From NCBI GenBank assembly GCA_030272155.1, contig CP126199.1, positions 1,426,001-1,490,000 on the forward strand: a stretch of DNA of 64,000 nucleotides. Reading direction: 5' to 3'. Of the stretch, positions 1 through 64,000 are shown one piece after another (position 1 is the stretch's first letter; every line of letters begins with the position of its first letter). The position numbers and the translations under genes were made by a program. This DNA is from Tetradesmus obliquus. Its lineage: Eukaryota; Chlorophyta; Chlorophyceae; Sphaeropleales; Scenedesmaceae. The notes under the pieces were generated by a model that saw nothing but the letters and a program-made list of their open reading frames with translations, ran no database searches and was not told the origin of the DNA.

Positions 1-1316
1 AAACATTTGATGTACAACAGGAGCACTCGGCGTGCCCCAGCATCAGCTGCTGCAGTCCAGCAGGTGCCGAGGCAGTTGGTGCAGCAGCAGAAGCAGCAGC
101 TGACAGCCCACTGGCGTCGCTGGTTTCCCTCCAGGATTGGGGAGCACATGCGTTTGCAGTGGTAGACTGCTCGGCATCTAGCCCAACATGCAGTAGCAGT
201 AACAGCAAAAGCAGGGAGTGCTCTCCACCGGAGGTTAGCAGCAGTGCCCCGCTCGATGCTCCAGTGACGTTTCCTGCAAGCTGCCAGCCAGCTGCAACAA
301 GCAGCTTAGGTGGCAGCCTAGACAGCAAAAGCAGGGAGTGCTACCCACTGGAGTTGAGCAGCAGTGCCTCGCTCAACACTCCAGTCGCGTTTCCTGCAAG
401 CTGCGAGCCAGCTGCAACAAGCAGCCTAGGTGGCAGCCTAGACAGTGCAGGCTGGCGAGTGCTGCTGCATCCAGCCGGCTTGCAGCAGAACACAGCAGCG
501 TGCCTTGGCAGCAGCTTGGACAGTGCAGCATGGCGCACACTGCTGCATGCAACTGGCTGCCAGCGGCCCTCCCTCAGCGGCGACGATGCAGCAGCTGCTG
601 GCCCTTCAGGCGCCGGCGCAGCAGAGCACTTGCTGCAGGACAGGCCGCCTCTGTCTGTGTGCACCAGCTCGCGGCAGCTGTCAGCGTGCCAGCGCAACGG
701 CAGCTGGAAGCTTGCAGGAGCTGGCGGTTTGGCACCATCAGTAGTTGGCTGTGATGCCATGCCGCTGCCATCTCCTGCAGACAGCCCACTGGCAAGGCGG
801 GTGACAAATGAACGCGATGAGCACGGGTTTCCAACCTCTCCTGCGCTGCTGGAGCTGCTGCAGCAGCGTGCTGCAGCAGAAGCAGCGGCAAACGGCTGGG
901 GAGACGGCAGCGAGCAGCAGCATGCACCCTGGATTAGCGTGCAGCTGCGAGCAGTGCCGCAGCAGCTGTCAGATGAACACAGCAGCGCAGATGGAGCTGC
1001 AGCGGCGGGTACTAGCCCGCCTTGGCTGCCGCTGCTCATCAGGCACATCAGCTATGATGCGCGCAACAGCAGCAGTGACAGCGGCAGCCACCGGAGCGAG
1101 CTTCAACACAGCAAATCAACAGCAGCTGCCAGTGGGAAGGCTGCAGCTGCTGCAGATGCTGCTGTTACAGCAGCTGAAGCAGCTGCTCATAAGAACAGAG
1201 TGGCGCAGCTGGCCGCTCTGCACAGCGCAGCAGCTGCTGCCGCAGCTGCTGGCAGTGCACGGCGTGATCAGCGGTTGGCTCGGCTGCAGGAGACTGCAGC
1301 AGGGCTTAGTGTTTAG
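1..1316 (+). CDS. 3' end of a low-complexity protein, unknown function (partial)
   Basis: The frame is open from the left window edge (codon phase starting at base 3) to a TAG at 1314-1316, so this is a C-terminal fragment of at least 437 residues whose start lies outside the window. It is rich in Ser, Ala, Gln and Cys and holds two near-identical 40-residue repeats (encoded by 203-322 and 323-442) followed by a degenerate third. The last 60 residues are an Ala-rich, basic, probably helical stretch. I recognise no domain. Other open frames overlap on both strands, as expected from CAG-type triplet bias; this frame is preferred because it is by far the longest and its repeat period of 120 bases preserves the frame. 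The function cannot be inferred. Confidence 0.55.
   Translation, partial: TFDVQQEHSACPSISCCSPAGAEAVGAAAEAAADSPLASLVSLQDWGAHAFAVVDCSASSPTCSSSNSKSRECSPPEVSSSAPLDAPVTFPASCQPAATSSLGGSLDSKSRECYPLELSSSASLNTPVAFPASCEPAATSSLGGSLDSAGWRVLLHPAGLQQNTAACLGSSLDSAAWRTLLHATGCQRPSLSGDDAAAAGPSGAGAAEHLLQDRPPLSVCTSSRQLSACQRNGSWKLAGAGGLAPSVVGCDAMPLPSPADSPLARRVTNERDEHGFPTSPALLELLQQRAAAEAAANGWGDGSEQQHAPWISVQLRAVPQQLSDEHSSADGAAAAGTSPPWLPLLIRHISYDARNSSSDSGSHRSELQHSKSTAAASGKAAAAADAAVTAAEAAAHKNRVAQLAALHSAAAAAAAAGSARRDQRLARLQETAAGLSV
203..442 (+). repeat. Two 120-bp in-frame tandem repeats
   Basis: The unit beginning with agcaaaagcagggagtgct at 203 recurs at 323 with scattered substitutions; a third unit from about 443 is recognisable only in part. 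Because 120 is a multiple of three, the repeats add 40 residues each without breaking the frame. Confidence 0.85.
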
Positions 1317-3035
1317 CTGCAGCTGTGCAACGCAGCTGTGCAGTTGTTTGTGCTGTTTTTCATCCGAACACTTGACCTAATGAGGCGACTGTGCCACAAA
1401 TGACTTGGCTCCGCAATGAGCAGGTTTCGTATGCAGGATGCATCTGTGGTGGTGTCGGTGGTGGTGGTAGTGGGGGCAAGCAGCGCAGCAACGCGCTGGC
1501 ATGTGGTTGTGGGAGCTGTTTCTGGGAGCTGTCTCTTTGGCTTCTGCACAACAGCAGTTACATTGCCAAAGACTGCACTCGCTTGCGGGATAGGTAGCAT
1601 TCCTTGGGGTTGGCACACAGCTTGGAGCCTGTTCAAGTGCTCAAACATGCGCAACATGCGCTGACAGTGTACGCAGTAGTTGTAGTTTGTGACCTTGGGA
1701 TGAATTGACCGCGATTTGATGTGGGGACCCGGCCACAGCTGGTTGCATTCAGCAAGAAACAGTGACTTTCCCGTGACCTCTGCATGTACCTAGGTTGTTG
1801 CTCAAGGTAGGCAGCTGCCGTCGTACTTGTGTGCAAATGATGGCAGGTGTTTGTGGCATCCGCACAAGCAATATGCACAACAGCACACCACTCCTGTGGT
1901 GCTGCGTAGATGCAATTGCGAGAAAGGCTATGACCAGTGAGCCTGGCCGCAGGTGTGCAGGTATTGTTTTGTGCGCCAGTGCCGCATCACCGTGTGATGT
2001 TGACAGTGTCTGCAGGGATGGCAGATTCCTTGCCACATCTGCAACCTAAACTTCATGAGTTCATTGCCGTTTTCAGTGCACCCAACAGCACGATCCTGCA
2101 GCTTGATATGCAGCTGTCAATCCAAGTGCTTGGCCAGCAGCAGGATTCATCACAAAAACGAGCGGCTGCCTCTAGCCATGCACATGTGCAGGTTTCCCGC
2201 CTTCATGGCACCATGCCTGCTGCTCCCTCGCAAGACAGGCTTTGCTTGTGTTGCTGAGGTATGAGCGCAAATGGCTTCCTTTTTGCCATTCCATTGCTGG
2301 CACTCTCCTGTGTGACTGCCGCAATGCCAGTTGAAGACCCTTGCATCGCTTGAGCAGGTACCATACATGCGTACCTGCATGATGTGATGGGCCTGCGAAG
2401 TATGTGTTGTATGAATGCTTTTGACTGTGTCGTTGGAGTGGTGCATATGAGTTGCTGCTGCTCTGAGTGCTGCTATGCGTGGTGCGCTGAGTAACGGACA
2501 TGTCGGCAACTGGCATGCTTGCCTGCTCGACATCAGCTTGTCAAAGCGTCAGTCTAGAACCATGGTCGCATGATCCTGATTTGATTTAGGTTGGGTACCT
2601 GCACGTTGTTCTCTTGCATGCTGCATCAGATGACAAGTGCATATCATCTGTTGCGTGTGGAGTGACGGCTGATGCTGTTATGAACACAGTGTTGAATGGC
2701 ACTTGGTGTTTGCTTAGGGTCAAAGGTAACGATCCGGCTGATCAAGGTTCAGGCTTCTGCATAGTCAATGAATTGGGTGAAACTGAGTAGCTTGCTTGGC
2801 AAAAGCCCTGATGCCCTGATGGTGTCGAATGACACCAGAAGGTCAAACTCCCTGTTACACCAGCGGCAAGATGACACGCACAGCAGAGCTGGTGACGATC
2901 ACCGTCATCTTTACCATTCAATAAGCCTGTTTGTAGCCTACAAATCGAACCTTGTGAGGTGTACTAGCAGATTTGCTGCGACCGTGGGACGAGTGTGTGG
3001 ACGCTGCTCGATGCAGCCAGTGTGTGCTAGCAGCA
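1317..3035. other. Intergenic, 1.7 kb, no gene seen
   Basis: The spacer lies between the stop of the partial gene and the proposed TILS start. It contains a short GGT-rich stretch near 1445-1480. The open frames are short, overlapping and lack exon-like codon bias or recognisable motifs. It presumably holds a 3' UTR and the TILS promoter, but I see no convincing element. Confidence 0.5.
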
Positions 3036-6000
3036 ATGCTTGAAAACAAACACTTCTATGTTCGCCTACAACATTATACTGACTGCCGCCGAAGCGTCTG
3101 CCGGCATGCAGCACTGCTGCAACAGCCAGCAACAGCAGTAGCAGCAGCAGTGCAGCAGCGACAACAGCGTTACGCCAAGGCTAAGCAGTGTTCAGTTGTA
3201 GCTTCCCAGGTTCTGACCAGTAGTTGTAACGATATTATTCCTCTCGGAAGCCCTGGGCATGACCATGATCGACTGCAGCAGCGCTTGCAGCCGCAGCAGA
3301 GGCAACAGCAACAGCAGCAGCTGCGGCCACCCCTACAGCCACATAATAGGTTCAGGAGCTGGAGCAGGCACCATGCTTCGCTGCTGAGGACGCTGCGGCA
3401 GCAGCCTCAGCTGTTGCCAGTGGGCTGCAGGGTGCTTTTGGCAGTGTCAGGTGGCCAGGTGGGTGAGCGGCAGCAATTGCTGTGGCATAAAGACGGTCCA
3501 ACACATAGGCAGCTGACGCATGCTCATGCCAGAAGTTTGCTTTGACAAGTCTGAAGGGGAGGCGCCGACAGCTGCACAATGTTAGTTCTGTGCGATGAAA
3601 ATACGTGTAGGTTCACCTGCTGTCGCCGCCAGCAGAGTCCACATCAGGTGCTTGAAGTAGCCATAAGTGCTGTGCTGGCCACATTGATCTGCAGCATGTG
3701 AACACTAAATATGAGGACCTATACTACAAGCTCACATGGGGAAGCGCAGGACAAGACTGATGGGGCTTGATTGCTTCCTGCAGGATTCCATGGCGCTGCT
3801 GCGGCTGCTGCTAGACCTGCAGCAGCAGTGGCCGCTGCAGCTTGTCGTGGGGCACTGCAACCACTGCATGCGGCCGGATGCAGCAGCCAACGCAGCCTTT
3901 GTGCGGCGGCAGGCGCAGCAGCTCGGGCTAGCCTATCATGAAGCTACTGCAGACCAGCAGCTGAAGTCAGAGGTGAGTATGCTGCTGTTGGTTGCGAGGC
4001 GAGGACTGAACCGTAGCACATGCATAGCAGTTGGACAACACACCTGGGGCAAAGGTTCATCAAACAAGCGCCAGAGTTCAGGCGTCACACACCAGCTCAC
4101 GTTGCTGCAACGTTCATTGGCGATTTTCATGCGCAGAACGACGCGCGCACATGGCGGCACCGGCAGCTGCAGGCCATGGCACGCACAGCCGGCTGCAGCG
4201 TCATTGCGCTTGGCCACACAGCCACTGACAGGGCTGAGACGCTGCTGCTGAACCTCGTGAGGTGGGACTGGCAGTAAGAGTCAACAGTGTTGTTCATGCA
4301 GCAGGCAGCATAGGCGAAGGCTTGCATGGTGATGTTACAACTAATCATGCATGCCAGTAGACCTGTCAATGGCCTGCCTGGCCTGCTGCCTGTGCTGCTA
4401 TCAAGGGGCTTGCTGCAGCATCAGGCAGCTGTAACAACAAGCACAGTGCCATCAGGAAACCGCTGTATCGTTTGCTTTTAATACTATTTGCCTCTGCCTG
4501 TTGTCCGCTGCTGGTGCTGCTGCAGGGGCGCTGGTGCAGCTGGCCTGAGCAGTATGGGCTGGAGCAGACACAGCAGCGGGCAGCTGCCACTAGTGCGGCC
4601 GCTGCTGCAGCTGGACCGCAGCAGCACGCTGGCAGTGTGCAACCTCACAGGCACACAGGTAAGCTGCTTGCCTGGTGTTACTGTAGGCTTTGCTGGCGCA
4701 GCACGTACAGGAGTTGAGCCTGTGGCAGTAGACTGGGCTACGCTCCTTTGCGCACCTTGCTGCAGGTAAACTGGGGTGCAGCTGCAGAGTGTTGCGCCGG
4801 ACCTCTTTGCATCTCCCGGGTCAGCATCTATGCATCACTTGGGCAAGCATCTTCAATGCAAGCTGCATCTGGCTGTGCTACCTGTGCTTCACCTGCAGGG
4901 CATGCGTCATATGTGCGCGGGCAGCAGGGTACATGCATTGCCGCCTCATACTCACTGATGGGTGCGTTGCTGTTGCCTTTGGTCGCCTGGCTGTGCGTGC
5001 AGTTCTGGGAGGACAGCACCAACAGTGACCAGCGCTTCACCCGCAACCGTGTGCGGCTGTCAGTGCTGCCGCTGCTGACTGCCATCAACGCCCGCGCAGT
5101 GCAGCACATTGCAGCAGCTAGTGAAGTGCTGCAAGCAGAGGATGAGCTGCTTGAAAGCATGGCGCTGCATGAGCTGCGTGCAGCATCGCGGCACTACTCG
5201 CTGCTGCCTGTGCCGGCTGCTGCTCAGCAGCAGCAGCAACAGGATCAGCAGCAGCAGCAGCAGCAGGAGCAGCAGCAGGAGCAGCGGCGGCGACGGCAGA
5301 GGCAGCGGCAGCGGCCAACGTCTCTGAAAGCTCAAGTAATTGAAGGGGAACGTGAGCTGCTCGAAACAATAGCGCTGCATAAATTGCGTGCGGCTTCCCG
5401 GGACTACTCGCTGCTGCCTGTGCTGGTTGATGCAGAGCAGCTGGATCAGCAGCAGCAGCAGCAGCAGCAGCAGGATCAGCAGCAGGAGCAGCAGCAGAGC
5501 CGTCGACGGCGGAGGAGGCTGCGGGCAAAATCTTACACAGTCTTCAAAGTTGCTGCAGCACCTGCGCCAGTGCCGACACTTGACTTGAGGTTTAACTCGA
5601 GTATCTGCGACAGCACTGACAGGAGCAGCGGCAGCAGCACAGAGAGCAACAGTGCTAGCAGCGGTGGCAGCAGCAACGGCAGCAGCAGCGACGACCGGCC
5701 CCGCACCAGCAGCAGCGGCAGTGGCAGCGGCAGCAGTGCCGTGGCTACTTTCAGTGTGCACGGGCTGTGTCCTGCCTCCGCAGACATGCCCTCTCACCCT
5801 TCCGCTGCCATTGCCGGCATGTTTCAGGCCTCTGTGTGGTGCAAGGGGCTGCAGGCAGTGAGCCACAAGTCAGGCACAGCTCTCAGCATCTTCTACCTGC
5901 AGGGCCTGCCAAGGGCGCTCAAAGCTCGAGTGGCGAGGGCTTGGCTGCAGCAGCAGCTGCCGACTGCTCCTACATACCTAGCAATACAGGAGGTGCTGGG

Positions 6001-6144
6001 GTTGCTGCAGCCGGGGCAGGGCAGCGGCCAGTGCACTGGCTCGTTATGGGGCAGCAGCTGTGTGATGCGGCATGGGCAGCTGCTGGTGCTGCTGGATGGT
6101 GCCGATGCAAGCAGCTTGCATGCTGGGCGGCTGCGGCTCGAGCT

Positions 6145-6179
<35 letters not shown>

Positions 6180-6259
6180 TTGAGATGAAGCCTCCGGTGC
6201 AGCAGGATCACGCTGGGGTGTCCCCAGGGGCCTGTGCATCCGCCACAAACAGCAACTGA
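3036..6259 (+). CDS. TILS: tRNA(Ile)-lysidine synthase, organelle-type, with Gln-rich inserts
   Basis: This PP-loop ATPase family converts the wobble cytidine of tRNA-Ile(CAU) to lysidine; in plants and algae a nuclear copy serves an organelle. Five exons: 3036-3458, 3784-3972, 4137-4261, 4526-4658, 5003-6259 (708 aa). Joining exons 1 and 2 restores the PP-loop SGGQDSMALL (about 138-147). Exon 2 has VGHCNHCMR and exon 3 GHTATDRAET, with LVRGAGAAGL across exons 3/4. Exon 5 has FWEDSTNSDQRFTRNRVR and ends with the C-terminal tRNA-binding type region (LQGLPRALKARVARAWL). The Ala/Arg/Gln-rich N-terminus could be a transit peptide; ATG 3036 is the first in-frame Met after a non-ATG opening. Exon 5 carries poly-Gln tracts and an internal 70-residue duplication, making the protein longer than bacterial TilS (about 430 aa). 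The family assignment is firm; the exact start is uncertain. Confidence 0.88.
5144..5550 (+). repeat. In-frame 210-bp duplication within TILS exon 5
   Basis: A block beginning gagctgcttgaaagc at 5144 recurs diverged at 5354. Both encode an ELLE-x2-ALH-x-LRAASR-x-YSLLPV segment followed by a CAG-derived Gln/Arg-rich tract. The copy inserts about 70 residues after the catalytic region without breaking the frame. Confidence 0.8.
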
Positions 6260-6424
6260 CGCAGCAGCGGCAGCGCACTGGCTCACTGTTTGGCGGCATC
6301 TGTGTGTTGCGGCATGGGCAGCTGCTGCTGCTGCTGCTGCTGGACGGCAGCGACGCAAGCCGCCTGCATGCTGGGCGGCTGCGCCTTGAGCTGCAGCAGC
6401 AGCAGCAGCAGCAGCAGTAGCAGC

Positions 6425-6455
<31 letters not shown>

Positions 6456-6545
6456 TGAGAGACACCCGTCAGTGCAACCAGATAGCGCAGGGATGTTCCC
6501 AGGGCGCTTCCCATCCGCCACAAACAGCAGCTGATACGTGACGCG
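6015..6545 (+). repeat. Tandem duplication of the TILS 3' end
   Basis: About 6015-6260 (last codons, CAG run and stop of TILS) is repeated at about 6255-6545. The landmark gcggcatgggcagctg lies at 6068 and again at 6308, and the gccacaaacagca motif before the stop recurs near 6519. The second copy lies after the stop codon, has an expanded CAG tract with interruptions, and looks like untranslated debris. Confidence 0.8.
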
Positions 6546-7554
6546 GCAGCAGCAGCAGCAGTTTACAGGACAGTGCTCTGCATGAAGACGCCAGCTGGAT
6601 GCGGCCTTGTGTTAGCGATGTTTGCAGTGCCTGGGATGCAGCTGGAGCAAGGCTGTGCCTCCTGCCTTGGACCGGCAGCGTCATCATCATGTTACCATCA
6701 AGCCATACCGGCAGCGTGGACCGGCAGCGTGGTGGGTTGCTGCCATTGCTGATGGTAGCAGCAGCATGGTCTTCAGCGATAGTGATTAGGCTGAAACAGC
6801 TGAAATATGCTGCACAGTGCTGCTTAGAGGGTGCCGTCCCACATGCCCCCTGACATGCAGTGGCTTGCTTTGTACTTGATTCTTGTGAGCTAGCTCACGA
6901 TAGCGCTACCCTCCTCATTTTCATGTTGCGCTTTGAGCCACTTTGGGCTATCTTCTGTTGTTATGAGACTGTTGTGAACCTATACCTGATCACCAGTTCA
7001 CGGTGCACATGCTGCGTGGCCAAAGCATCTGACTTCCAGCTTTAGCTAGAAGCAGACCTAAAAGCATGATCAACTGTGTGGCCAGTGAGCGAGCAGGTAT
7101 TTTGCTTCAGCATAGAGTGAGTGGATCAGCAGCTTCAAAGCGTCTTTGCTGACACTGATCACGTCAGCATCGCTGAATGCCCATCAATAGGTCGGGATGC
7201 GCGCGCAGATCCACAGTGCCACGTGGGTACTGTACAGCAAAGCCCCCCAAAAGCCAGAACTAAACAATTCATTTTCAAATGTGTTCATGGATGCTATTGT
7301 GATCGGTGCATTAGTGTACCGCAATCAAGGCCAGTGCCGTGGCATGGCACATTGTCACTGACCGTGCTCCGCGCCGCTGACAGGAGCTCAAATCCATGAA
7401 TACAAGCGAGAGTAAACACAAAGGCAGCAGCTGTGCATTCCACAACCACAAGGAGCAAACAATAGCAGGCGAATAGCATCGGCCTGTACTGCTCGGCCCT
7501 ATCGCGGGTCACTAGCAACCTTCAGCTGAACCGAGTGAAATTGAAGCTTCAGCA
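6546..7554. other. Intergenic, 1 kb, no gene seen
   Basis: This spacer separates the TILS 3' duplication from the first secreted-protein gene, both on the plus strand. It must hold the TILS polyadenylation region and the downstream promoter. I see no ORF with coding character, no RNA gene and no strong repeat. Confidence 0.5.
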
Positions 7555-9789
7555 ATGAAGCTATCTCACGCTGTGCTGTGCGTTCTGGCGCTCGTGGGTA
7601 GGTGTGCCAGTGTACCGGTGTTGCGCGCGTCTCCGGCCAGAAAGCAGCCTCATGCCTCTCAAGTCGAACTGTGACGCATCCGCTTTCAATGTCATTCAAC
7701 TTAAATTCTCAGATGCTTATGGACGTGTTTGCGGGGTGCTTGCTGCTGCTGTCGCTGTGGTGCTGCTACTCGTCCTGCAGGCACCGCTCACCAAGCAGCT
7801 GCCGTGCGTCAGCTGTCAGAAGCAGTCGCAACCCCAGCCGAGCAGGGAAAGCTGATTATCCCGTTCAAGGATGCAGAGGGCACGTGGCACCCAGCTAATG
7901 TCACAGGCCTCGATTTTGAGAGCCTCACTCTGCTGGACCTGCCTTCACCAGAGATTTTCCTGGAGGTTGCAATGACCTCTCCTTTCCCCATGCCAGACAT
8001 CCCCATGCAGACACTGGTTGACAACACAGTGAAGGCGTGGGCAGGCGGCAAGCCTCCCTCAAACGTGAATGACTGGTAAGTACCTCCTCTGCAACTGGCT
8101 GTTGCTGCTGGGGTGTGCTGCAGCACGACAACAGCAGAGAAGATGACTTGTACAGCTTCAAACGGCAGTACAACAGCACCGCACTGACAGACAACAGGTT
8201 AAAACAGTTTTAATCAGGCGCAGCACCTGGCAGGTCTCTCAGCTGCTGAGAATTGCACCACACCATACATGGAGCCGCCCCTGCATCCTGCCCCTGCAAC
8301 CTGCACCTCCTGCACCCTGCTCGCATTCAGGCTGCTGCAGAGCATGACAGCACGAGCCTGCATCATCAGCAATCTACTCACCACCACTGCTTCTGTTCCA
8401 CACCCTTTCCTGCAACCCTTCCTGCAACCTTTCCTGCAAACATTCCTGCAGGCTGCTGCTGCTGCAGAACGGCGGCAACTTCATCACCAGCAACCTCCCC
8501 ACCTTCCTGGTCAAACTCCTGCCAAACATCACACTGGCAGATGGCAAGAAGCTGAGCATTGGAGCAGAGGCCGGAAAGGTTGTCACTGCACTGGCACCCC
8601 TGCTGGGCTCCAACACAACTGTGGAGCTGCCACTGCCGGGTGACATGGCTGCCGGTGTGGGTGTGAGCAGGCCCAGCGTGAATGTGGACCTGATCCAGGG
8701 CATCAACGTGACGCTGGAGGTTGTCAGGCGCCTGGTGAGCCGACTGCATAATTAATGGATTTGTATAAGAAGACTAGAGTCGGCAGCAGCTGCCGCATGT
8801 CTGGGGCATCAACGTTGCACTGGAGGTTGTGAGGCGCCTGGCGAGCTAGCTGCAGGGCCAGCCCTGAGATTCGACAAGTAGTTACGCGACGTTCGAGCAT
8901 TGTGTGTGCTGGACTGGTTCTTAGTTGCCCTGGCAGCTGCGTGCTGGTAGGTTGTCACCTGCTTGCAGCATTTTGTATGTGCAGAACAGGACCTGCTGAC
9001 ATGGCATCTCCTGAAACTAAACGCTGGCGTTGCGCTGTTTTGCTGCTCTTTGCATTTCCTGCCTACATCTTGCAATGCAGCCCACCCTGCTCAAGCAGGT
9101 CTCCGAGAACGTGCGCGACGGCGTGCGCAGCAGCATCGAGAACCTGCAGCTGCCCCAGATCGACGAGATCACAAACTCGGACGGAACCTTGGACGTGCCC
9201 GCGCTGATCAAGTCCGCGCTCAACATTGAGGTGTCAGCACCGGTGCTGCCGCCTGCCCCAGATGCCTCTCAGGTCATTATGGGTGTGACACGTGCCCTGC
9301 CTGTTGTGGCCGGCCAGCTGGGCCTCAACACCACCAACATGCGGCTGCCTGACCCTGCTGTGGTTGAGGCTGTCCTGAAGCAGGCCAATGGCAACAAGCT
9401 GTTCGTTACTGACAAGCGCGGCAGGTGAGGCAAACGCGGGCTGCATCAGAGAGGGTTGATGCGCTGTCATGCTCGTAACCAAAGCAGTCAAGAGATATCT
9501 GTCCTTCCTGTTGTCACCAGCTACAAGCTGCCAACATCGCAGCGACATCCTGTCTGTGCATATTGCTGCGTTAGGTTTACACGTTTCAAACACCACCTCA
9601 TGATCGTTGCCGCTGTGCTGCAGGGTTGACCTGCTGGCCACGCTGGTGCAGCTGCCAGAGAAGGTGCCTCAGGTGCGCAAGGTGGTGGCAGCAGTGGCAC
9701 CTCCTCCCCAGGGCTGGCCTGAGGTGCAGGATGTGGCCAAGATGCTGGTCAAGGCTGTGGGTCAGCGCCTAGCTGCACAGGCAGCTTGA
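7555..9789 (+). CDS. Secreted protein with N-glycosylation sites, unknown family
   Basis: Five exons chain in phase: 7555-7597, 7781-8075, 8452-8734, 9081-9424, 9624-9789 (376 aa). Exon 1 is only 43 bases and encodes MKLSHAVLCVLALVG; with the start of exon 2 this is a standard signal peptide, and the intron is phase 1. The mature part has several N-x-T sequons (NVT, NIT, NTT, NVT) and alternating hydrophobic/acidic segments such as LDLPSPEIFLEVAM. It has few Cys and no membrane anchor that I can see, so secretion to the cell wall, the periplasm-like space or a vacuole is likely. Codons are strongly C/G-ending in exons 3-5, supporting real coding. No family is recognised. A TGTAA motif at 9954-9958, a common green-algal polyadenylation signal, lies 165 bases after the stop. 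Confidence 0.78.
8802..8850 (+). repeat. Copy of an exon 3 end plus splice junction inside intron 3
   Basis: The last about 40 bases of exon 3 and its donor (8697-8745) recur diverged at 8802-8850. In the copy the donor dinucleotide reads GC instead of GT and the frame then meets a stop, so it is most likely non-coding. Confidence 0.8.
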
Positions 9790-14433: not shown

Positions 14434-14473
<40 letters not shown>

Positions 14474-36841: not shown

Positions 36842-38122
36842 TCACCACTTGCGCCATTTTTGAATCTCCTGCAGCGCCTCCTCGTCTTCTGGCACATGTG
36901 CCTCACTCTTTGGCCCTCCCAGCAGGAACACTTCACTCTTTATCCCTGCCAGCTTCCCACCCTCTGCCTCAGGCTTGAAATCCAACACCAGCTTCCCCAT
37001 ATACCTGCTGCCCCAGCTCGCCTGAACCACTGGAACATCCCGGCCCTTGTTGTGCACATAAGTTGGGTACGGGCCCCATGTCGAGTCGTGCTCGCTGCCG
37101 GAATCGGCCTCACTTGAGATGTAGAAGGCTGGCGGGGAGTCGGGTTCTGGCCACAGGAAGGAGTGGCTGTGGCCGCCGATGATGAGGTCCAGCCCAGAGA
37201 GGGCTGAGGCAGCCACAAGGTCAGATGTGTACCTGCAGCCACCATGATTGTGTTGGACAGCACCAGGTGCATCAGGCAACACCAAGCAAGCTGCTGACCT
37301 GCGTATGGTGTGTTTGGCGCGTGTGTGACATTGAAGATAGCACATGTGCACAGGAGCACACATAGTGCAGGCATACATCACCCTTGCGCTGCACAATAAC
37401 CCCACAACACGGCGGGCCCACCCTCAAACCTGCCAATAAGTAGTGCCTGCCCTTTGCGTGGCTGCTGTTCTGTCAGTGTCAAAGTACCGCTCTTAGAGCA
37501 AGCTGCCGGTGAGGTGGGGTGTCGTTGCGCATCGCAGTAAGACGTCTCTGGATATAACATGAGAGAGTTGGTGCTCAAGGGTGTGCAGTGTGTCTACGGT
37601 GCTCACTCTCCTTTTCTGGTCTCAGACCTGTGATCAACCTGTTGTGGCTCATACCATCCAAGATGGTGCCAGGACCCACATGTAACTATCCTCTCTCAAA
37701 GTGTCGAGGCCAGATTGCCGCCATGCCATGCACACCCCACCCCAGGTGGATCAGCAGCACTGACATGAAACAGCCCTGCTGCTCAGGGCGACAGCCGGAG
37801 TGGCGCAGAAACACAGCTGTCGAGCCATGCACAACACAGTACTGCGACGATATCACAAGGCACTCACCCCAGGTGGCTGAGCAGTACTGTGGCGTGGCAG
37901 CCCTGCCCCTCCAGGCTCTTGAGGGCCTGCCGCCCTGCGCTGTAGGGCTCCTGGATCTTGAGGGGGCCCATCTGGCTGCTGCCAGGCAGGCCGTACATGG
38001 TGGTCAGGCCCAGGATGCATACCTGGCAGCAGCAGCAGCAGCAGCAGCAGGAGTCAGTCCCATCTGGCTGCTGCCAGGCAGGCCGTACATGGTGGTGAGG
38101 CCCAGGATGCACACCTTGACAA

Positions 38123-38159
<37 letters not shown>

Positions 38160-38324
38160 ATCAGTCCCATCTGGCTGCTGCTAGGCAGGCCGTACATGGT
38201 GCTCAGGCCCAGAGTGCAGACCTGGCATGACCAGCAGTAGCAGCAGTAGCAGCAGCAGCAGGAGTCAGTCCCATCTGGCTGCTGCCGGGCAGGCCGTACA
38301 TGGTGGTCAGCCCCAGGATGCAGA

Positions 38325-38356
<32 letters not shown>

Positions 38357-40006
38357 TCAACCAGTCAGTAAAATATCAATGCATCTCACATTTCAGGCAG
38401 CCCACACATAGTGGCGAGCTGCAAGATGCACACCGGGCAGCATCATCATCAGCAGCAGCGGCAGCAGTCAATCAGTCAGTTACATATTGATGCATCTCGC
38501 CGCTTAGGAAGGCCATACATAGTGGTGAGCTGCAAGATGCACACTTGGCAGCATCAGCATCAGCCGACAGCAGCAGCAGCAGCGGACAGCAGCGCTTAGT
38601 CACAAAGCAAGAGAGCTGGCTTTCACATGTACAGCCAAATGCATGAGCGTCAGCGGCAGCAACATGCTAGCTCACTGCTGCTGCCAGCTTGTCCAGTCAA
38701 TTGCAACCACACCTTTGAACACTGACTGTCGCTGCAGTCCAACTGCGACTCACCTTTTTGCCCTCGACAAGCTTTACCACGTAGGGCTTGATCTTGTGCC
38801 GTATCTCATGGCCGTGGAAGTCGATGTTGGCCGCCAGCACGTCCTTGTTGTCCTGTGCATCCAGGTACTGCTTCAGCGCCGGCAGGCCCTTGTCCCACTC
38901 ATGGTTGCCCACAGTCTGCAGCACACATAGCAGCAGTGATTTGTTAACTTGAGAGCATTTGAGGCAAAAGCAATGCATCAGCACAGAGCTTTGAGGTAAA
39001 AAACACGGCTTCAGCACTGATAGGTCCCTGTTACAACTCATGGTTGCCCACCGTCTTCAGCAAACAGCACAGCAAGTATCTATTGATGTGATAGCAGTCA
39101 AGGTCTAGGAGCTGCTTAAGAGCCGGCAGGCCCTTGTCCCAGTCGTGGTTGCCCACAGTCTGCAGCACACAGAGCAGTTGAGGCAAAAACAATGCTTCAG
39201 AGCCGGCAGGCCCTTGTCCCACTCGGGGTTGCCCACAGTCTGCAGCACACAGAGCAGTTGAGGCAAAAACAATGCTTCAGAGCCGGCAGGCCCTTGTTTT
39301 ACTCGGGGTTGCCCACAGTCTGCAGCACATGCGGCACAGCGGGCTTTGTGCTTGTTTGGAAGCAGTTGATGAATTGCGAAGGTAACAAAGCTGGCAGTCC
39401 CATTTGATGCACTATGAGAACACTGCAGAAACATGGCGGATTGAAAGGGAAGCTCTGCAGCAAGGTGCCAACCCGCCTCACCATTGCGTCTGGAGCAAGC
39501 AGGTCCATGATTACAGCGGGTGCATCCAGGCCTGCACCCCTACTCAGTGCCTATGGACTATACAACAACTCGGCGGCAGAAAGACAGCAACGCTCTGAAG
39601 CAAGATGTCAACCCGCCTCACCATTGCATCTGGAACCAGCAGGTTCAGAAGTGCAGCGGGTGCACCCAGGCCATCCTGTCCTACTCAGCCCCTATGACTA
39701 CAAGAACGGGGCGGCAGAAAGGCAGCAAAGCTCTGCAGGAGTTCCTGCACCTTCAAAGGTGTCAATCCGCTGACACCACCTCACCATTGCATCCGGTGCT
39801 AGCAGGTTCATGAATGCAGCGGGCGCATCCAGGCCGGCCTTCCTGTCCCACTCCGTGCCGATGAAGTCATCCCCGGCATTCAGCAGCAGCAGCTGCGGGT
39901 CCAGCAGCCGCTGCTGCTTCACAAAAGTGGCCATGCGCGCCAGGCCCCCGCTGCAGCGGCCTGCAGGCAGCAACAGGGCAACAGTGCAACCCTTTATTTG
40001 CCAATT

Positions 40007-40043
<37 letters not shown>

Positions 40044-41889
40044 TCAGGGTTCAGCAACCGTTCCTGCCTACAAAGGTGGCCATGCGCGCCAGGCCCCCGC
40101 TGCAGCGGCCTGCAGGCAGACACATGGTGCAGCATGATTCAAACAGCTCTGTTGGACATCATTGTTCAACACCTTTTTTGGACGCCTTTGTTGAACACCG
40201 TTGCTGAAACACATCTGCAGCAAGTTACTGCTGATTCTATGGTGAGAAGGTGCACAGGTGCGCCTGTGTTGAGTGTCATGTAAGAACACACAGTACCCAG
40301 CGAGTGGGTTTACAGCCAGCTGGCAAGCAAAAGGTTGCAGTAGCTGCACCTGTTAAACAGGCAGGCAGGGATAGGCAACTGTTGAGGTATGTACTTGGTG
40401 CAATCACATGCTATTGCCTGCCAGTGCAGTTAGCACAACCAGTGCTCACCCTTTTTCACGTCATATGGGGTGCACAGCCCGCACCAGGTCCCTTTACTTG
40501 ACTCCACACGCACATGCCAGTCATTGAAATGCAGCAAGGTGATCTGCACCGTGCCATTGACCATTGTGTTGCCTGGCACTGCACTGCTCCTCCCTCGCTC
40601 TCGGCCCCCTGTGCGTGTCCTTGTCGCTGCTGCAGATGCCGCCGCTGACGCCGCTGCTGTTGCTGTCGCCACAGCTGCAGCTGCAGGATTTGCTGCAGGC
40701 GTAGGCATGCCACTGTGCCAGACAGAAGCAGTACCTTGTGGAACCACAGATGCTGGTGCTGGCGCTGCACCTCCATTAATGACTGCTGTGCCAGCTGCTG
40801 CAGGAGTTGTTGCAGCTGCAGTGGCGGCAGCAGCAGCGGCAGCAGCTTCGGCTGCTGCTGTAGCGCTGGCACTCCCAGCTGCAGCTGATTGGCTGGGCTG
40901 ATCAATGCTGGCATCAACAGTTGCACCAGGTGCGGACAAGGTTGCAGCTACTGTGGCATTGGGCAGGGCCCCTGGGCCGACTAGTACAATGGGTTGGTTG
41001 GTGGCCGCTGTTGCTACTGCGCCTGCTGCTCTTGTTGCAGCTGCTGGCGGGGCAGCTGCTGCTGGTGTTGTGGCGGCTGGTGCTGCTGCTGCTGGCAACG
41101 CTGCTGCAACTGCTGGTGTTGTTGCAGTTGGTGCTGCTGCTGCTGGCAACGCTGCTGCAGCTGCTGGTTTCAGAGCAGCCTGCGGTGCTACTGCTGGCGT
41201 AGCTGCTGCTGCTGGCGCTGCTCCGGCTGCTGCTGGTGCTGCTGCTGCTGCTGGTGGTTTCGCAGCAGTCTGCGGTGCTGCTGCTGGTGTGGCTGCCGGC
41301 ACAGCAGCTGCTGGCACAGGCGCGACCAGCACCGCTGCTGCAGGGCTTGTGCCTGCAGGTGGTGCAGTTGTCCCTACTGCTGCACCTGCAGGCACACCCG
41401 GCACAACTGCTGCAGTTCCAGCAGTGACAATGCTGTTGGTGCTGCCCCTGCGTGCTGCTGCTGTAGCTGCTGCTGTGGCAGGGAGAGCTGCTACAGCCAG
41501 GCTATTGTTAGGTGCTGCAAGCTGGGCTAGAGTGCCAGGCAGTGTAGCGTTGACAGGGATTGCTGTTTCATTTACTGCGGTGACTGGCTTGATGGCTGCA
41601 GTGGGCTGCTGCCGTAGCAGCTGCTGACCGCTAGTGAAAACAGAGAGTCCTGCAAGCAGGACCCGCAAAGTGTTACGCTGTCAGCAGGAGATGCCACAGG
41701 CAGGTGCTGCATACGTGGTCAACTTGCCGACTGAACAATGAAAGTCTTAAGGACGTGGCATACAAACCAGGTGGCTTTTTGCAATGGGCATGGCATGTCT
41801 GTCAGGCCTGTGTCCAAAGTGTCCAGTGTTGCCGGGGTGTACGCCCTACCTGTGCACAATAGGATGACTGACGCAGCTGATCGCTGCAT
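36842..41889 (-). CDS. Secreted 5'-nucleotidase-like metallophosphatase with long Ala-rich N-terminal region
   Basis: Six exons in phase: 41889-41850, 41649-40450, 39960-39785, 38915-38754, 38022-37868, 37232-36842 (707 aa). Exon 1 encodes MQRSAASVILLCTG, a signal peptide completed by exon 2, split by a phase-1 intron. About 350 residues of Ala/Pro/Thr/Val low complexity follow. The calcineurin-like catalytic core then starts at ITLLHFNDWH (about 382-391) and continues with LLLLNAGDDFIGTEW, LLAPDAMTVGNHEWDKG (across exons 3/4), VCILGLTT, LLSHLGY (across exons 5/6) and GGHSHSFLWPE, so every metal-binding motif of the UshA/NT5E family is present. The usual C-terminal 5'-nucleotidase substrate-binding domain is absent: the chain ends about 105 residues after GHSH. 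It is probably an extracellular phosphomonoesterase or nucleotidase used for phosphate scavenging. Introns 2-5 hold duplicated exon edges. Confidence 0.85.
37737..37767 (-). repeat. Copy of the exon 5 3' edge and donor in intron 5
   Basis: The sequence around the true donor of the metallophosphatase exon 5 (about 37862-37892) recurs diverged here, 125 bases further along the transcript, with a GT-bearing donor-like site kept. Confidence 0.65.
37968..38550 (-). repeat. Array of exon 5 5'-edge copies in metallophosphatase intron 4
   Basis: The true exon start (37968-38022, encoding VCILGLTTMYGLPGSSQMG) is followed upstream in the transcript by at least three clear copies (about 38056-38115, 38160-38223, 38266-38330) and two degraded ones (about 38392-38440, 38504-38550). 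They are linked by CAG tracts and spaced about 105-115 bases. Several retain an AG acceptor. Confidence 0.85.
39028..39340 (-). repeat. Array of exon 4 5'-edge copies in metallophosphatase intron 3
   Basis: The exon 4 beginning (acceptor plus codons for TVGNHEWDKGLPALK) recurs at about 39028-39060, 39121-39180, 39201-39260 and 39281-39330. The last three form an exact-period 80-bp tandem array including the CTGCAG acceptor and upstream intron. Confidence 0.9.
39470..39700 (-). repeat. Copies of the exon 3 3' edge and donor in metallophosphatase intron 3
   Basis: The true exon 3 end (about 39785-39860, encoding AAFMNLLAPDAM then GTGAGG) is repeated diverged at about 39605-39700 and 39470-39545, downstream in the transcript. 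Both copies keep an ATG-GTGAGG-like or ATG-GTGAGGCGG donor context. Confidence 0.85.
40060..40110 (-). repeat. Copy of the exon 3 5' edge in metallophosphatase intron 2
   Basis: The start of exon 3 (about 39910-39960, encoding GRCSGGLARMATFV) recurs at about 40060-40109, preceded by the same CTGCAG acceptor. The copy then shifts frame and stops soon after. Confidence 0.85.
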
Positions 41890-51659: not shown

Positions 51660-54600
51660 CTACTGATCCTCCTCCTCCAGGTGCAGTATAGACTGGGCTA
51701 CAGCTCGCATGCATAGACTTCGCAGCTGCTCTGAAACGCTGATGGTATCTGCAGGCGACACCTGCAGGCACAGCCACAGTACACGCAGCGCCTGATGTAA
51801 AGCAAAGGACTTAACACTGTGATGGTGTTTGCAAGCACAGCGGTAGTGCAGTGAAAGCTGGATGCGGTGGAGGGCAGCAGCAGGACAAGCGGGAACCTGG
51901 TATAGCTGTGTATAGATGTATATGCTGTCACAGCCCCTGCTGTCAAGCAACACGCAAGAACAGCTTGGGCACGTTCACAACAAGGCAGATGCAGCTTGCA
52001 GCTCATGCACACAGCAGCCAGTAGCTGCACCATGCAGCCACCTTTTGGATGCCTTTAACGCCAGACAGTTCTTGAAGTCTGTGCTCAACACGCAACAGCA
52101 CTCAAATGCGGATGCATGCAGATCCTCACCATAGGGGCCAGGAAAACTTCATCTAGCACTCCTGGTAGCTGCTCGCAAGCGTCAACTGCCAGGCGGCGCA
52201 GGTTTGTCAGACGCGTGAGCCTGACCAGGTCAGCAGCACCAAAGCTCGGCGTGCCTGTGATTTCCAGCTCCCGAAGCTGCTGCAGCTGCATCAGCGCCGC
52301 TGCCAGCTGCGACCCATCCACCTCGACGCCGCCGATAACCATCTGCGTGACTGCTGTCAGCTGCGCCAAGCTGCCGATATCTGCAGCGCCCTGGATTGCA
52401 CCAATTGCCTGGAAATGCTCAAGCGCCGGGCAGGCAGCTGCCAGCCGTGCAATATCACCCTCTCCAAAGGGCTTTAGAGGCTCGTTATCTGCAGCCCAGC
52501 GTATCGCATAACTGCCGAGGTGCAGCTGCTTGAGCTTTGGCAGCTGCTTGCCTGCTGCAAACATGTACTGCGCTGCTCCATAAGCCACCCCGTCATGATC
52601 ATCAAGCAGCTTCAGGCATGTCAGCTGCGAGGACGCTGTCAGCGCTGCATACTGCTGCATCTCCTCGTCCTCGAGTGGGTAGATGTCACTCGAGAAATGC
52701 AGCCCTAGGTGCTGCATCTGCGTCATGCTCTGCAGCGCATCCAGCAGCATGGTCGGGCTGCAGCCTGCAATGTGGTCCAGCCGCAGCTCCTGCAGCTGCT
52801 GCAGCTGCTGTACTAAGCTGGGGCAGATGCGCAGGGCTTCAGTGTTGGTGTTCTCCAGCTGTGCGCAGAGCAGGTGCAGCCTGCGCAGCGCAGTGAGTTG
52901 CGCAATGCTGGGAGCTGCCTCAGCGTCCAGTACATCGATGGACTTTGTTGCAGGGCCGTAGAAGTAGGCAGGAGCATCAGGATCTGGCACGCTAGCACCG
53001 AGCCAAATGAGCTCCAAGCGTGTAAGGGAGGGCGGCAGATCCTGCAGCCAGCAGCAGCAGCAGCAACAACAGCAGCAGCATTAGAGTGCTGATTGAGCAT
53101 GAGAGTTATGCGCACCAATAGCGCTTGTGAGCCATGTCTTGCATGATCATGCCAACTGATATTTAATTTCTGTCAAGACAGGTGTGAAAAGACAGTTAAA
53201 CGCATGGTGAATGCACAACTGCGCACCTGCCTGGTGTGTCGGCATCTATCATCAAAGCATTCGGCTCGCATACCAGCAGAGCACACGACAGAGCTCCAAG
53301 CTGTGCGCACCAGGTCAGCTGCTGTCTGCCTTGTATAAGAACGAATATTTACACCCACCGAGTCCTGAGGACTACGGTGAATGCGTTGCTGCGCATTGCA
53401 AGCAAAGCTGGGCCTTGTGCAGTGCTGGACCTTTTGCACATTATATGAAGCACAGCACGCCCGCTCACCTGCAGTAGCTCCAGCTTGTCAACTGGGTTCC
53501 GCACAAAGCACAGCTCACACAGGTTTGTCAGCCCACGCAGCGGCGCCTTGGGCACGGCGCGCTCCTCCCAAAAGCTGTTGTGGGGCACGCACACGGTTGC
53601 AAAATAACATGAAACATCAGGTGGTTTCCAGGCCATGTGCAAGAAGTCTTGTTGCTGTTCAGACAGATAGCAGATCTGCTATCTGGTGCTTGCATAGCTG
53701 ACAAACACAATACAAAAGCTTTGCATGTTGCACAACATGCTAGTACATTATAGCCATACTGCCAACAGGTGTGCACAGCAGCCAGAGTGCAAAGCAACCT
53801 CAGCTCTTTCTATCAAAGACTACTTGTGCGCTCACCTGCCGTCCAAAGTAAGGCTGATCTGATGCTGCTGAACAACAATGCTTGGCATGCTGCATTATGA
53901 AGCAGCACCCCGCCCACCACAATTTTAGCCACATGCTCACCTGCCGTCCAATGTCAAGCTGGTGAGCTGCTTCAGCGCAGCCAGCAGGTCCAACGCATCT
54001 GACTGCATGCTTGCTGTCAACACATGTCCAATCGCACTGGACATGTCACGCTCACCTGCCGTCCAATGTCAAGCTGGTGAGCTGCTTCAGCGCAGCCAGC
54101 AGGTCCAACGCATCTGACTGCATGCTTGCTGTCAACACATGTCCAATCGCACTGGACATGTCACGCTCACCTGCCGTCCAATGTCAAGCTGGTGAGCTGA
54201 CTCAGCGCAGCCAGCAAGCCAGCAGAATCATACAGCCCCAGGCCACCAGACAGCTACCTAGCTAAAGACAGTGTTAAAATCAGTTGCACACTCACCTGCC
54301 GTCCAAGGTAAGGCTGGTCAGCTGACTCAGCGCAGCCAGCAGGCCAGCAGAATCCTGCAGCCCAACACCAGAGAGGTACAGTCCCTGCAGGCTGCTCAGC
54401 TGCCGCAGCCTCGCTGTGTTGCTGCTGTTGAGGATCAGGCGGGGCAGCTGCTCACACGTGTCTTCTATCGCTACCACCAACACCCGCAGGCTTGCTGGCA
54501 GTTGCCCCAGCACCTTATTTGATACACGGCAGTCCTGCAAGAGCAGCTCCTGCAGCTGCTTCAGGTGCTGCAGCGGAGGAGCCTGCATTGCGTACTGCTG

Positions 54601-60579: not shown

Positions 60580-63500
60580 TCACGAGGCATCTGCCCCTCC
60601 ACCCCCACCACCCCCAAGCTTGCCCGGCAGAATGCCCGCCATCTTTGCAAGACCCTCCCGCGTGCGCGCTGCTGTCTGCTGCATGTTGAAGTTCAAACCG
60701 CCAGGCTTGAACAGTGCCGGCTTGCCGCCGCTGCCGCTGCCCACACCACCCCCGCCACCTCCAGCCGCATGCGGCGAGCCGCCATCCCTATCACGCATGC
60801 TCATACTGCTTGCAAGCTCCCGGGTAAAAGTGTTAACGCTGAGCTTCAGTGCACTCAAGTTGGCACCTGGGCCCCCAAAGCTCCCCCCCCCACCTCCTAT
60901 ACCAGAAGCGGATCCTGAGCCCGACCCAAATGCAGCTGGAGCTGAGATCGCAGCTGCACCCAGCCCCCGGCCGTCTCTCTCTGCTGCGCTGCTGCTGTAG
61001 TAGCTGCTGCTGCTACTGTTGCCGGTGCTAGCTGCAAACGCTGCTGCTGCAGGGGACGGGCTGTGTGATGCCATGCCGTCTGCTGCAGTGCCGCCTGTTT
61101 TGCGCATGAACTGTGCGATGAGCTCCCCTTGCAGCTTCTTGGTGAAACCCTGGTAGTGTGAAAGCAGCAGCCAAGGGAGGCAGCACCACATGTCGTTTGA
61201 GGGCACGCCATTGCCCAGCGCACAGCAGCAGCGCCACCACATATGCCTTGCAGAGGTATCAAACTGCAGTCCTGATCGAATGCTTACACGCGCGTCCTGT
61301 TGTGCCTGCGTTTTATGCACTCTGCATGCGCTGCAGGCCCTCCACACATGCACACAACATGCCTTGCAGCCATCAGCAACCCGGCGCTGACCCACCTTGA
61401 GCTCGCACACACGCGCCAGGTCATTTGCTGTCTTGGCGGTTGCTGGCATCAGCAGGATGAATGTGTCAACCAGGTTCTCAGGCTTGGCCTGCAGGCAAGG
61501 TGGCGGCGATGATGCCACAGCAGCAACATCAGATGCAGGACAGCAGCACCTGTTCAGCAAGCAAGCCAGGTTGGTATCATGAGGACCAGGCTGCATTGCA
61601 GGCGCAGAAGGCTCTGGGAAACAGCCTGCCAGGGCCCATGCAAGGCAGAAAGCTGCTCTGTACCATTTACCCGAACATTAAACAGAAGCCCACCTGCATG
61701 ACCTTCACCAGGTTGACCGCGCCCGCCATCTCTCGCTCCACATAATGCGCATACGCCGCGCTGTCAGCCTCATCATCCAGCGGTCGCGCGGCCCGCGGCA
61801 GCTCCAGCAGCAGCCGCCGCACGCTGTCAGCATCAATGGACAGCTGCAGTGTGCCCTTCTCGCTCACCCTGCGAGAGAGCACAAGAGAGTTGATGTGCAG
61901 CGAGGTATGCAGGGCAGCATGATGAGAAGATGGGGTAATAACTTGGTGGAGCACACGTACTTATGCAAACGCGTCACTTGCGGCCGATTGATCATGTCAC
62001 CACACCACCTCGGCTCTCACCCAGCATGCAAGCACCAACTGGACCCCGACGCCGTGCCTAAACCTCCGCTGCCGCTCACTTGCGCAGCTTGTAGATGGTG
62101 TCGATGAAGCGCGGCACAAACATGCGGCCAAACTTGTCGCAGAAGAAGCCAAACTGGCTGGCGTCCAGCACAGCGCCCAGCCGGGGGGCTGCCTCGATGA
62201 TGAGCAGCCGCCGCATGGCGCTTACATAAGGGCTGTCGTCACCGGGTGACTCGATGGCGTCCCAGCGCATGCGCAGCATGTCCTGCAGCGATCCAGAGCG
62301 GCAGTGATGTTAGTGTAACATAGGAGCGGCAGGGAGCAGGCGCCGCATGGAGCTCACGCAGGGGCTGTCGTCACCAGGTGACTCTATTGTGTCCCAGCGC
62401 ATGCGCAGCATGTCCTGTGGGAGGTGGAAGCGGCAGCGTGATACACAGCAAAGACGCTGTGCATTGAAAATTAATTGGTCAAACCAAATTTCTGTTCGGC
62501 CAGCAACAGACGCGGATTGCAAATCAAGCACTCCCAGTGTTGCAATCAGGCAGTCTGCTGCTGTGGCTGCTGTGTGTTGCTGTCTGCTCTGCACAGCTGC
62601 AGCCTCACACCCACCTGCAGGCAGGCGTCCAGGCGCGTGTTGATGCCCAGCACCAGCACGCTCAAGCACTGGCTGGCCACGCCAGTAAAGGCGCTCTCCT
62701 CCTCCCCAAGGTCAGTGGCCTCCACCAGGCTAGGAGCCAGTCCTGGGGCCAGCTCCTTGGCAATGAGACGCCCCAGGCCCTCCGTGGTCTCCCTGCAGTA
62801 TAATGAAAAAGAACGGGTGGAGTAGCAGCAGTGATTTTAGCGGATGGGGAACAGTTTGGTGACCCAGGATCTCAGGGTTACATCATAGGGGTGTTGAAGG
62901 CAGCGTGCGTGCATGCGCGTTGCACTGCAAGCTTGGCGGCCTACGGCATCGCAACAGAGTCAGCAATGCACTCCACAGCACAACACCGTCTTCCCTTTCA
63001 AGCCTTGCTGATCCGCAGCTGCTATCACCTGCAGTGCTCTGCAGTAGCCAGGATGGCCGCCAGCACCTCCTCCTCCTCCTGCGGCAGCCGCACATGCCAG
63101 TCGCTGCCGTGGTAGGGCGGCTGCGCTGAGGTGCCGCCGGTAGCTGTCTTGGGCAGCCGCTTGAGCAGCTCGCCAGCATATGCAGACAGCACGCGCTGGA
63201 CGCGCAGCAGCAGCAGCAGTAGCAGCAGCAGGGATACACAGGACAGGGTCAGGAACACAGCAGCATGATGCTCAACATCAGGCCCGAGACACAGGGGCTT
63301 ATGCTTGATCATGGCGCTTCCACAGCTGCTTACATGCTAAAGGCGGGCCAAAGCAGCACCTCAAACACGTGTTGCGGCGCCCACTGCAACAACAGCTGCT
63401 CTTGCTGTCATCCCACAAGCCGTTCTGAACCCATGCTTTCTTCCTCTCCCTCGGCTTGACAGCAGCCCCTGCGACGCGCTGCCGGTCATTGCACCCAGCT

Positions 63501-63718: not shown

Positions 63719-63892
63719 CTGCATGTGGTGCGATGTGTTGACGCGCAGAATGCAGGCAGCAAGGGTAGATGCAGTTGGCAAGTGAGTGTGCCAGCATTTG
63801 GCCCTAGGCAGCAACGTGCTATCAAGTTTGGCCAGCAGTGCTGATGCAGAGGCTGCTCCTGCAGGCCATGATGCAGCGCTGCCAGCGCTTGA

Positions 63893-64000
63893 GGTACTGC
63901 TAGCGCTCATGGCACTGCTAGCGCTTACGGCACTGCTAGCGCTTACGGCACTGCTAGCGCTCATGGCATTGCTAGCGCTTACGGCACTGCTAGCGCTTAC
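63893..64000. repeat. 18-bp minisatellite at the right window edge
   Basis: Six units of the type actgctagcgcttacggc run to the window end. On the minus strand an open frame reads them as alternating SASSAV/SASSAM, but an intron of VPS53 is the likelier location. Confidence 0.85.

Follow-up and report, generated by a model that had tools for sequence, protein, structure and literature searches.

The window analysed here is a stretch of 64,000 nucleotides from Tetradesmus obliquus (GenBank assembly GCA_030272155.1, contig CP126199.1, positions 1,426,001 to 1,490,000), and positions below are those of the window. Its minus strand carries a metallophosphatase/5'-nucleotidase-type gene, the product of which matches the Pfam family Metallophos (E 1.6e-10). 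Three exons of this gene (E2, E3 and E4) have copies of their edges in the adjacent introns, 13 in all, each in the same orientation as the exon and with the splice site included, and local duplications of the same kind recur at splice junctions elsewhere in the genome.

The predicted exon model rests on homology. The best database relative of the gene product is a T. obliquus protein, P0001 (96 % identity over 86 % of the query), which joins DAM/TVGNHE, KK/VCIL and SHLG/YTSD (a slash marks a join or splice site), the same joins as those deduced here for E2-E3, E3-E4 and E4-E5, and on sequence comparison no extra piece was seen in P0001 at any of the three. The N-terminus of P0001 falls within E2, so that E1 is absent from it and is supported instead by an open frame and by protein P0002, with which the E1/E2 join is consistent. 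A gene finder trained on the genome sample described below recovered the borders of E2 to E5 exactly and made no confident exon call for E1; it also placed three weak extra exons in the gene (scores -0.1 to 2.9, all under the later cut-off of 7), two of which lie on copies. On searching the organism's own assembly at the DNA level (104.7 Mb in 17 contigs; simple repeats skipped, best 40 of 80 candidates scored), the locus itself was the sole strong match among the candidates scored (4282 bits, the next being 71.6), the others falling mostly on its CAG-rich stretches; a phage search gave no match. A protein read from a related strain's contig (P0003) runs into E5 from upstream, and the matching part is 92 % identical; its upstream part is, by eye, unlike intron 4 here, and introns may therefore diverge fast.

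The exon-edge copies at this locus are confirmed as real. A preliminary description of the DNA had counted copies at the edges of its exons 3, 4 and 5 (E2, E3 and E4 here), and its count for each junction was matched exactly: one at the E2 start, two at the E2 end, four at the E3 start, five at the E4 start and one at the E4 end, which makes five copied junctions and not the four it spoke of. As it had also stated, exonic codons are present together with the splice site at the copied edges. Whether the copies could be unrelated to the exons was checked by local alignment, comparing the best copy of each edge with 300 dinucleotide shuffles of the same intron, and at all five copied junctions the best copy beat every shuffle. 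The E4 end is the weakest case (31, shuffle maximum 29), the other four junctions scoring 67-102 against maxima of 25-32; for the E1 end, E3 end and E5 start no copy was found in the adjacent intron (shuffle P 0.50, 0.88 and 0.92). Taken from the true site outward, the copies are spaced by 149 at the E2 start, 163 and 140 at the E2 end, 139, 105, 80 and 80 at the E3 start, 92, 107, 104, 108 and 111 at the E4 start, and 127 at the E4 end. Each junction thus has a unit and period of its own, in keeping with the separate events proposed before. The arrays run head to tail with units longer than 10 bp, as in minisatellites, and are reported by Tandem Repeats Finder (TRF) at 37967-38359, 38329-38579 and 39113-39329.

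Table 1. Exons, introns and exon-edge copies of the metallophosphatase gene (window positions; numbers given for donors and acceptors are splice-site scores; D numbers refer to self-alignment pairs)
Feature	Position	Strand	Evidence and remarks
E1, Ala-rich N-terminal exon, ends ITLLHFNDWH...VKK G/GTGAGC	40450..41680	-	open frame, P0002; start codon putative
Intron 1 (489 nt)	39961..40449	-	
Copy of E2 start, acceptor CTGCAG/GCCGCTGC (6.3 = true site)	40041..40109	-	alignment 93, shuffle maximum 32; D15, 93 % over 58 nt
E2 (GGLARM...APDAM)	39785..39960	-	homology, gene finder
Intron 2 (869 nt)	38916..39784	-	
Copy 1 of E2 end, donor GCAATG/GTGAGG (6.6 = true site)	39622..39686	-	score 67, shuffle maximum 29
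Copy 2 of E2 end, donor GCAATG/GTGAGG (6.6)	39482..39546, far edge approximate	-	D10, D12
Copy of E3 start, acceptor 4.8, in-frame stop inside	39273..39319	-	
Copy of E3 start, acceptor 5.3, GNHE His to Pro	39193..39239	-	score 79, shuffle maximum 25
Copy of E3 start, acceptor 5.3 (true site 4.6)	39113..39159	-	
Decayed copy of E3 start, acceptor CTGAAG, 1.4	39026..39054, far edge approximate	-	D9
E3 (TVGNHEWD...VEGKK), donor AAAAAG/GTGAGT	38754..38915	-	homology, gene finder
Intron 3 (731 nt)	38023..38753	-	
Farthest copy of E4 start, AG lost	38490..38544, far edge approximate	-	
Copy of E4 start, AG lost	38380..38433, far edge approximate	-	
Copy of E4 start, acceptor TGCCAG/GT (6.5 = true site)	38268..38325, far edge approximate	-	
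Copy of E4 start, acceptor 5.7	38166..38221, far edge approximate	-	
Copy of E4 start, acceptor GTCAAG/GT, 1.7	38059..38114	-	score 102, shuffle maximum 32
E4 (VCILGLTT...LLSHLG)	37868..38022	-	homology, gene finder
Intron 4 (635 nt)	37233..37867	-	
Diverged copy of E4 end, donor CCTGGG/GTGGGG (4.4; true 7.7)	37741..37787	-	score 31, shuffle maximum 29; D17, 73 % over 52 nt
E5 including stop codon (YTSDLVAASALSGLDLIIGGHSHSF...)	36842..37232	-	homology, gene finder

Many of the copied sites match the splice consensus when scored with matrices hand-written from it, so that they are candidate decoys, as had been proposed, and their non-use is a prediction. At both edges of E2 the copied sites score exactly as the true one, and at the E3 start three of the four copied acceptors score above it (Table 1); at the E4 start the two copies that have lost the AG fall to -1.9 and -1.2. 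On in-silico splicing, use of any of the 13 copied sites would bring the reading frame to a premature stop, at residue 429-578 of 704 (numbered from 41680), and P0001 joins the exon-proximal copies, both of which agree with the earlier claim that the true junction is the copy keeping the frame. The required splice site must, to judge from the sequence, always adjoin the exon body and is not necessarily the strongest one.

The wider sample was taken from 200 ten-kb regions drawn at random positions outside contig 12, contig ends past the length bounds used and the window itself. The first 25 regions were used, and one of them, a large satellite-like region (1-7550 of locus L012, with offsets of roughly 270-900 bp and repeats mostly 98-100 % alike, one 91 %), was left out of all family counts, which therefore refer to the window and 24 loci, 304 kb in all. 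A plain hexamer test gave a modest signal only (GCAGGT 3rd and CAGGTG 7th of 1584 hexamers), hence the use of gene models. These came from a generalised hidden Markov model with a fourth-order coding model, self-trained on the sample and provided with hand-set splice matrices; three earlier versions were dropped for drift or misplaced borders and only the fourth was used. Exons scoring at least 7 were regarded as confident, giving 274 exons, 212 introns and 488 splice junctions (230 donors and 258 acceptors). Junction copies were carried by 18 gene pieces, and amongst 13 proteins or segments from these that were run against Pfam, 10 matched above the cut-off, two below it and one had no match; the 10 include SRP54, beta-CASP, ribophorin I, DHHC, 5'-nucleotidase C (two genes), a permease, a kinase, NTPase_I-T and the window gene.

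Self-comparison of the sample yielded 84 local duplication families, 76 of them with an offset of at most 300 bp; the remaining eight, four of which are exon-internal, were left out of the 76. A confident junction is spanned by 41 of the 76; a further 18 place one arm in an exon (12 of these end within 12 nt of a junction), six are exon-internal, four are intron-only and seven could not be assigned. Local duplications cover 54 of the 488 confident junctions, about one in nine, with donors (28) and acceptors (26) hit about equally, and the metallophosphatase gene is no special case. A local duplication of one of the three intron-touching classes lies in 50 of the 212 introns, and the median length of these is 527 nt against 281 (P 4e-8), part of the difference being the added copies themselves. 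The exon-internal periods are multiples of three in all six families up to 300 bp and in three of the four longer ones left out; the junction periods spread over the three classes of remainder (14/14/13), as expected if junction copies are untranslated. The junction is not centred in the duplicated unit (quartiles of the exon share of the period, 0.31-0.63). Direct pairs dominate, with 218 as against 10 inverted pairs within 1500 bp, nine of which are self-complementary stretches and one a true inverted copy. Offsets of 100-149 bp account for 48 of the 84 families. The offsets show two concentrations, one at about 70-150 bp and the other, about double in size, at 239-276 bp (10 of the 76 families at 239-276, five at 150-238), and the first range is common to exons, introns and borders.

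The preliminary description suggested a process that preferentially duplicates exon-intron borders and lengthens introns, and proposed counting junction-spanning against random duplications. Over the window and the 24 random loci, 41 of 45 families are junction-spanning, the other four being intron-only. In a simulation with the same detection, in which 900 duplications were placed uniformly over introns and borders with an assumed divergence uniform between 0 and 0.30 per copy, junction-spanning events made up 229 of the 518 detected (44 %; P 5e-11 for the observed count). At four exon-score cut-offs the unmasked ratio of junction to intron-only families was 43:4, 41:4, 36:8 and 31:7. A constrained exon could keep junction pairs visible for longer, and therefore all confident exons were masked before detection, the expected junction share then being 0.30. 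Masking left 27 families in confident introns, comprising 12 junction parent-copy families, 11 copy-copy families inside junction arrays and four intron-only; a junction is involved in 12 of 16 (P 2.6e-4) or, with the copy-copy pairs, in 23 as against 4 (P 4e-9). At an identity of at least 85 % the masked ratio is 8:2 (P 0.0015). The junction excess and the longer introns bear out this suggestion in part, whereas a survival filter and, in part, haplotype exchange would leave the same picture as targeting of borders by the process itself.

The reading we favour, and consider fairly probable, is that of recurrent 70-150 bp duplication filtered by splicing, with longer introns as the outcome. Duplications would arise repeatedly in the genes of T. 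obliquus as direct repeats of short units, mostly 70-150 bp in size, and a unit straddling a splice junction would place an extra exon edge and splice site inside the intron. If splicing keeps the exon-proximal copy, the extra one would be removed whatever its length and be close to neutral, and it might sometimes be amplified to an array, the intron lengthening. Wholly exonic units would survive only in frame; for border units the frame would not matter, the surplus copy probably being removed by splicing, and border copies would thereby build up. Splicing probably ignores the decoys by pairing sites across the exon, which would also explain the choice of the exon-proximal copy. We infer that the border excess comes from duplications tending to have one end in exonic DNA, with exon-only events purged; the six in-frame exon-internal events (90.5 kb), which despite selection outnumber the four intronic events of whatever frame (91.0 kb), suggest that exonic DNA is the more duplication-prone partner, although these numbers are small.

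Several observations weigh against this reading. If the copy-copy pairs of the masked comparison are assigned to the intron interior, 13 of the 27 families abut a junction and there is no excess (P 0.39), although 13 is still above the 2.7-5.4 expected by chance (P 0.0009), and the youngest pairs (identity at least 90 %) show a weaker border bias (4:2, P 0.07). The donor motif GGTGAG ranked only 94th of 1584 in the plain hexamer test. Over 48 exon-edge/copy pairs, identity in the exon part is often 85-95 % with no gaps, but the intron part is frequently unlike; 12 of the 24 pairs with an exon identity of at least 0.88 are without intron homology past the first 12 nt, which holds for only 1-9 % of simulated tandem duplications, and many two-copy cases elsewhere in the sample have a non-homologous spacer. 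Moreover, differences between exon and copy concentrate at third codon positions beyond the neutral expectation, with counts by codon position of 23/22/57 in full-unit copies, 56/35/111 in spacer-type and 24/19/51 in intermediate ones (103/76/219 over these three classes, with four stops in 1197 codons) and 85/75/151 between copies. Coding constraint on the copies, considered from 26 ungapped pairs (34/20/91, no stops in 450 codons), was weakened once all copies were included, and the copies look broadly neutral. The third-position bias can come partly from synonymous change in the exon and from base composition, perhaps not entirely, and gene conversion between exon and copy is a possibility as another source of the misfits.

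Misaligned exchange between two diverged haplotypes might account for both the missing intron homology and the third-position bias. The exon edges of the other allele would be recognisable and its introns not, so that mainly border events would be detected, and a related Scenedesmus is described as likely diploid, with alleles assembled apart (PMC7955037). We nevertheless find this explanation rather doubtful, since copies with intron homology favour junctions too (the masked 12:4) and show a similar third-position bias, and at the two residues of the copied edges that differ in P0001 the copies read by eye carry the residue of this gene; the locus was seen once in the assembly, among the candidates scored. 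It is also possible, though on balance unlikely, that exon-intron borders are sought out by the duplication machinery as such, say by way of chromatin at exon edges or of transcription-coupled breaks there. The junction excess with and without masking, the near equality of donors and acceptors, and the high-identity pairs in which similarity ends just past the splice site would all suit such targeting; the off-centre position of the junction, the in-frame exon-internal repeats of the same size, and the fact that selection against exon-only duplication yields the same picture speak against it. In its boldest form, which we offer tentatively and would not expect to hold, splice junctions would be true duplication hotspots in T. 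obliquus and perhaps its family, a main route by which these algae came by their long introns, and the spliceosome would have to disregard several equally strong sites nearby; the copying mechanism would sense the exon-intron boundary, because in many copies nothing is retained beyond the exon edge and the intron's first dozen bases.

Uniform neutral tandem duplication, with the excess a detection effect of an exonic parent copy that stays recognisable for longer, appears improbable and is largely contradicted in this sample. Simulated old duplications (divergence above 0.15 per copy) were indeed detected more often at junctions, and the masked result hinges on how copy-copy families are counted; however, the same simulation gives 44 % and not 91 %, and the excess of parent-copy pairs persists with exons masked. 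That the copies serve as functional alternative exons or regulated splice sites is very improbable, even though many copied sites score equal to true sites and the third-position bias would fit. Cassette exons are not indicated, a donor lying near 3 of the 21 acceptor-type copies (background 24 %) and an acceptor near 14 of the 18 donor-type ones (background 79 %); the junction periods are not in frame, every copied site in the gene would truncate the protein, and the E3-start copies hold a stop and a change of the GNHE His, which we take to be catalytic. An artefact of the assembly or of the home-made gene models can hardly be credited. The gene finder, self-trained and with hand-set matrices, did by eye take copies for exons in some genes; yet most copies differ from their exon by several to about 30 %, the ratios hold over the four cut-offs, E2 to E5 of the known gene were recovered exactly, and Pfam supports 10 of the 13 models run.

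Amongst known systems, tandem exon duplication and mutually exclusive exons involve an exon in its entirety, including both its splice sites and as a rule in frame. Exonic sequence is likewise copied into introns here, but it consists mostly of edges and is not in frame: on looking for complete exons with both splice sites, complementary sites were no commoner than background in 39 pairs, and the spread of the junction periods gave no sign of copies usable in frame. Exceptions to edge-only copies may exist, as the arrays of locus L021 are read as exons by the gene finder. One study has reportedly connected intragenic duplications interacting with splice sites to intron creation; here, unlike in such work, existing introns are lengthened. 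In the potato RdRp gene, according to the account in PMC4974935, tandem genomic duplication across an intron-exon boundary created a new intron. Common to the two cases is a direct duplication whose unit runs from the 3' part of an intron through its acceptor into the beginning of the following exon. The potato copies are both described as spliced borders, giving a new intron and an exon piece, whereas here the inner copies are apparently skipped, the coding sequence would stay unchanged, the intron grows and the event recurs across the loci sampled. Tandem repeats concentrated near intron ends are reported for Chlamydomonas and Volvox in a survey of units of 1-50 bp (PMC3887541), a similar excess in green algae, although the units here are mostly of 70-150 bp and hold codons and splice sites. 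Introners are introduced in PMC9860276 as dispersed mobile elements changing intron content; unlike these, the present copies are local to each junction, and near-identical copies in many introns were not indicated, there being no second strong genome match among the candidates scored. In the open-licence literature, subscription journals lying outside the search, no account was found of introns lengthened by recurrent copying of exon edges. Duplication across a border is a type of event already known; what appears new here is how often it occurs, its bias and the longer introns that result.

Introns of the core-Reinhardtinia (Chlamydomonas and relatives) are characterised in PMC8226300 as conspicuously long for such genomes, with a mechanism called likely ancient and the advantage of length unknown. 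Table 1 of PMC5966456 lists a mean intron of 462 bp for T. obliquus, the values for C. reinhardtii and three other Sphaeropleales being 230-302. With about one junction in nine of this sample carrying copies, such duplications are a tangible source of intron length and one that can be counted. The loci can also serve as experiments of nature in how splice sites are chosen: two to five near-identical sites are in competition, and it is the one beside the exon body that the frame demands.

Two more 5'-nucleotidase-type genes (L021 1758-9743 and L017 353-4276) are at the top of the list of copied junctions with 8 and 7 respectively (locus L025 also has 7), and the exon start multiplied in L021 corresponds, by eye, to the E4 start of the window gene. 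In L034 (contig 6), 1309-1502, an 88 % local duplication with an offset of 106 bp lies over a predicted exon border near 1360; as a paralogue this locus was rejected, having no match to the window protein and being by eye an LRR/F-box-like gene. Elsewhere in the window, a minus-strand gene at 53932-54379, with a weak LRR-type Pfam match below the cut-off, has copies of the donor junction at 54295 in units of 115 bp, the inner copies being about 98 % alike. Single exon-edge copies occur at 8698-8854 (donor 8734) and 62202-62417 (acceptor 62282), and an exon-internal duplication at 202-463 has a period of 120 bp, a multiple of three. A run of 36 G lies at 14435-14470, and the window ends in an 18/54-bp tandem array at 63879-64000.

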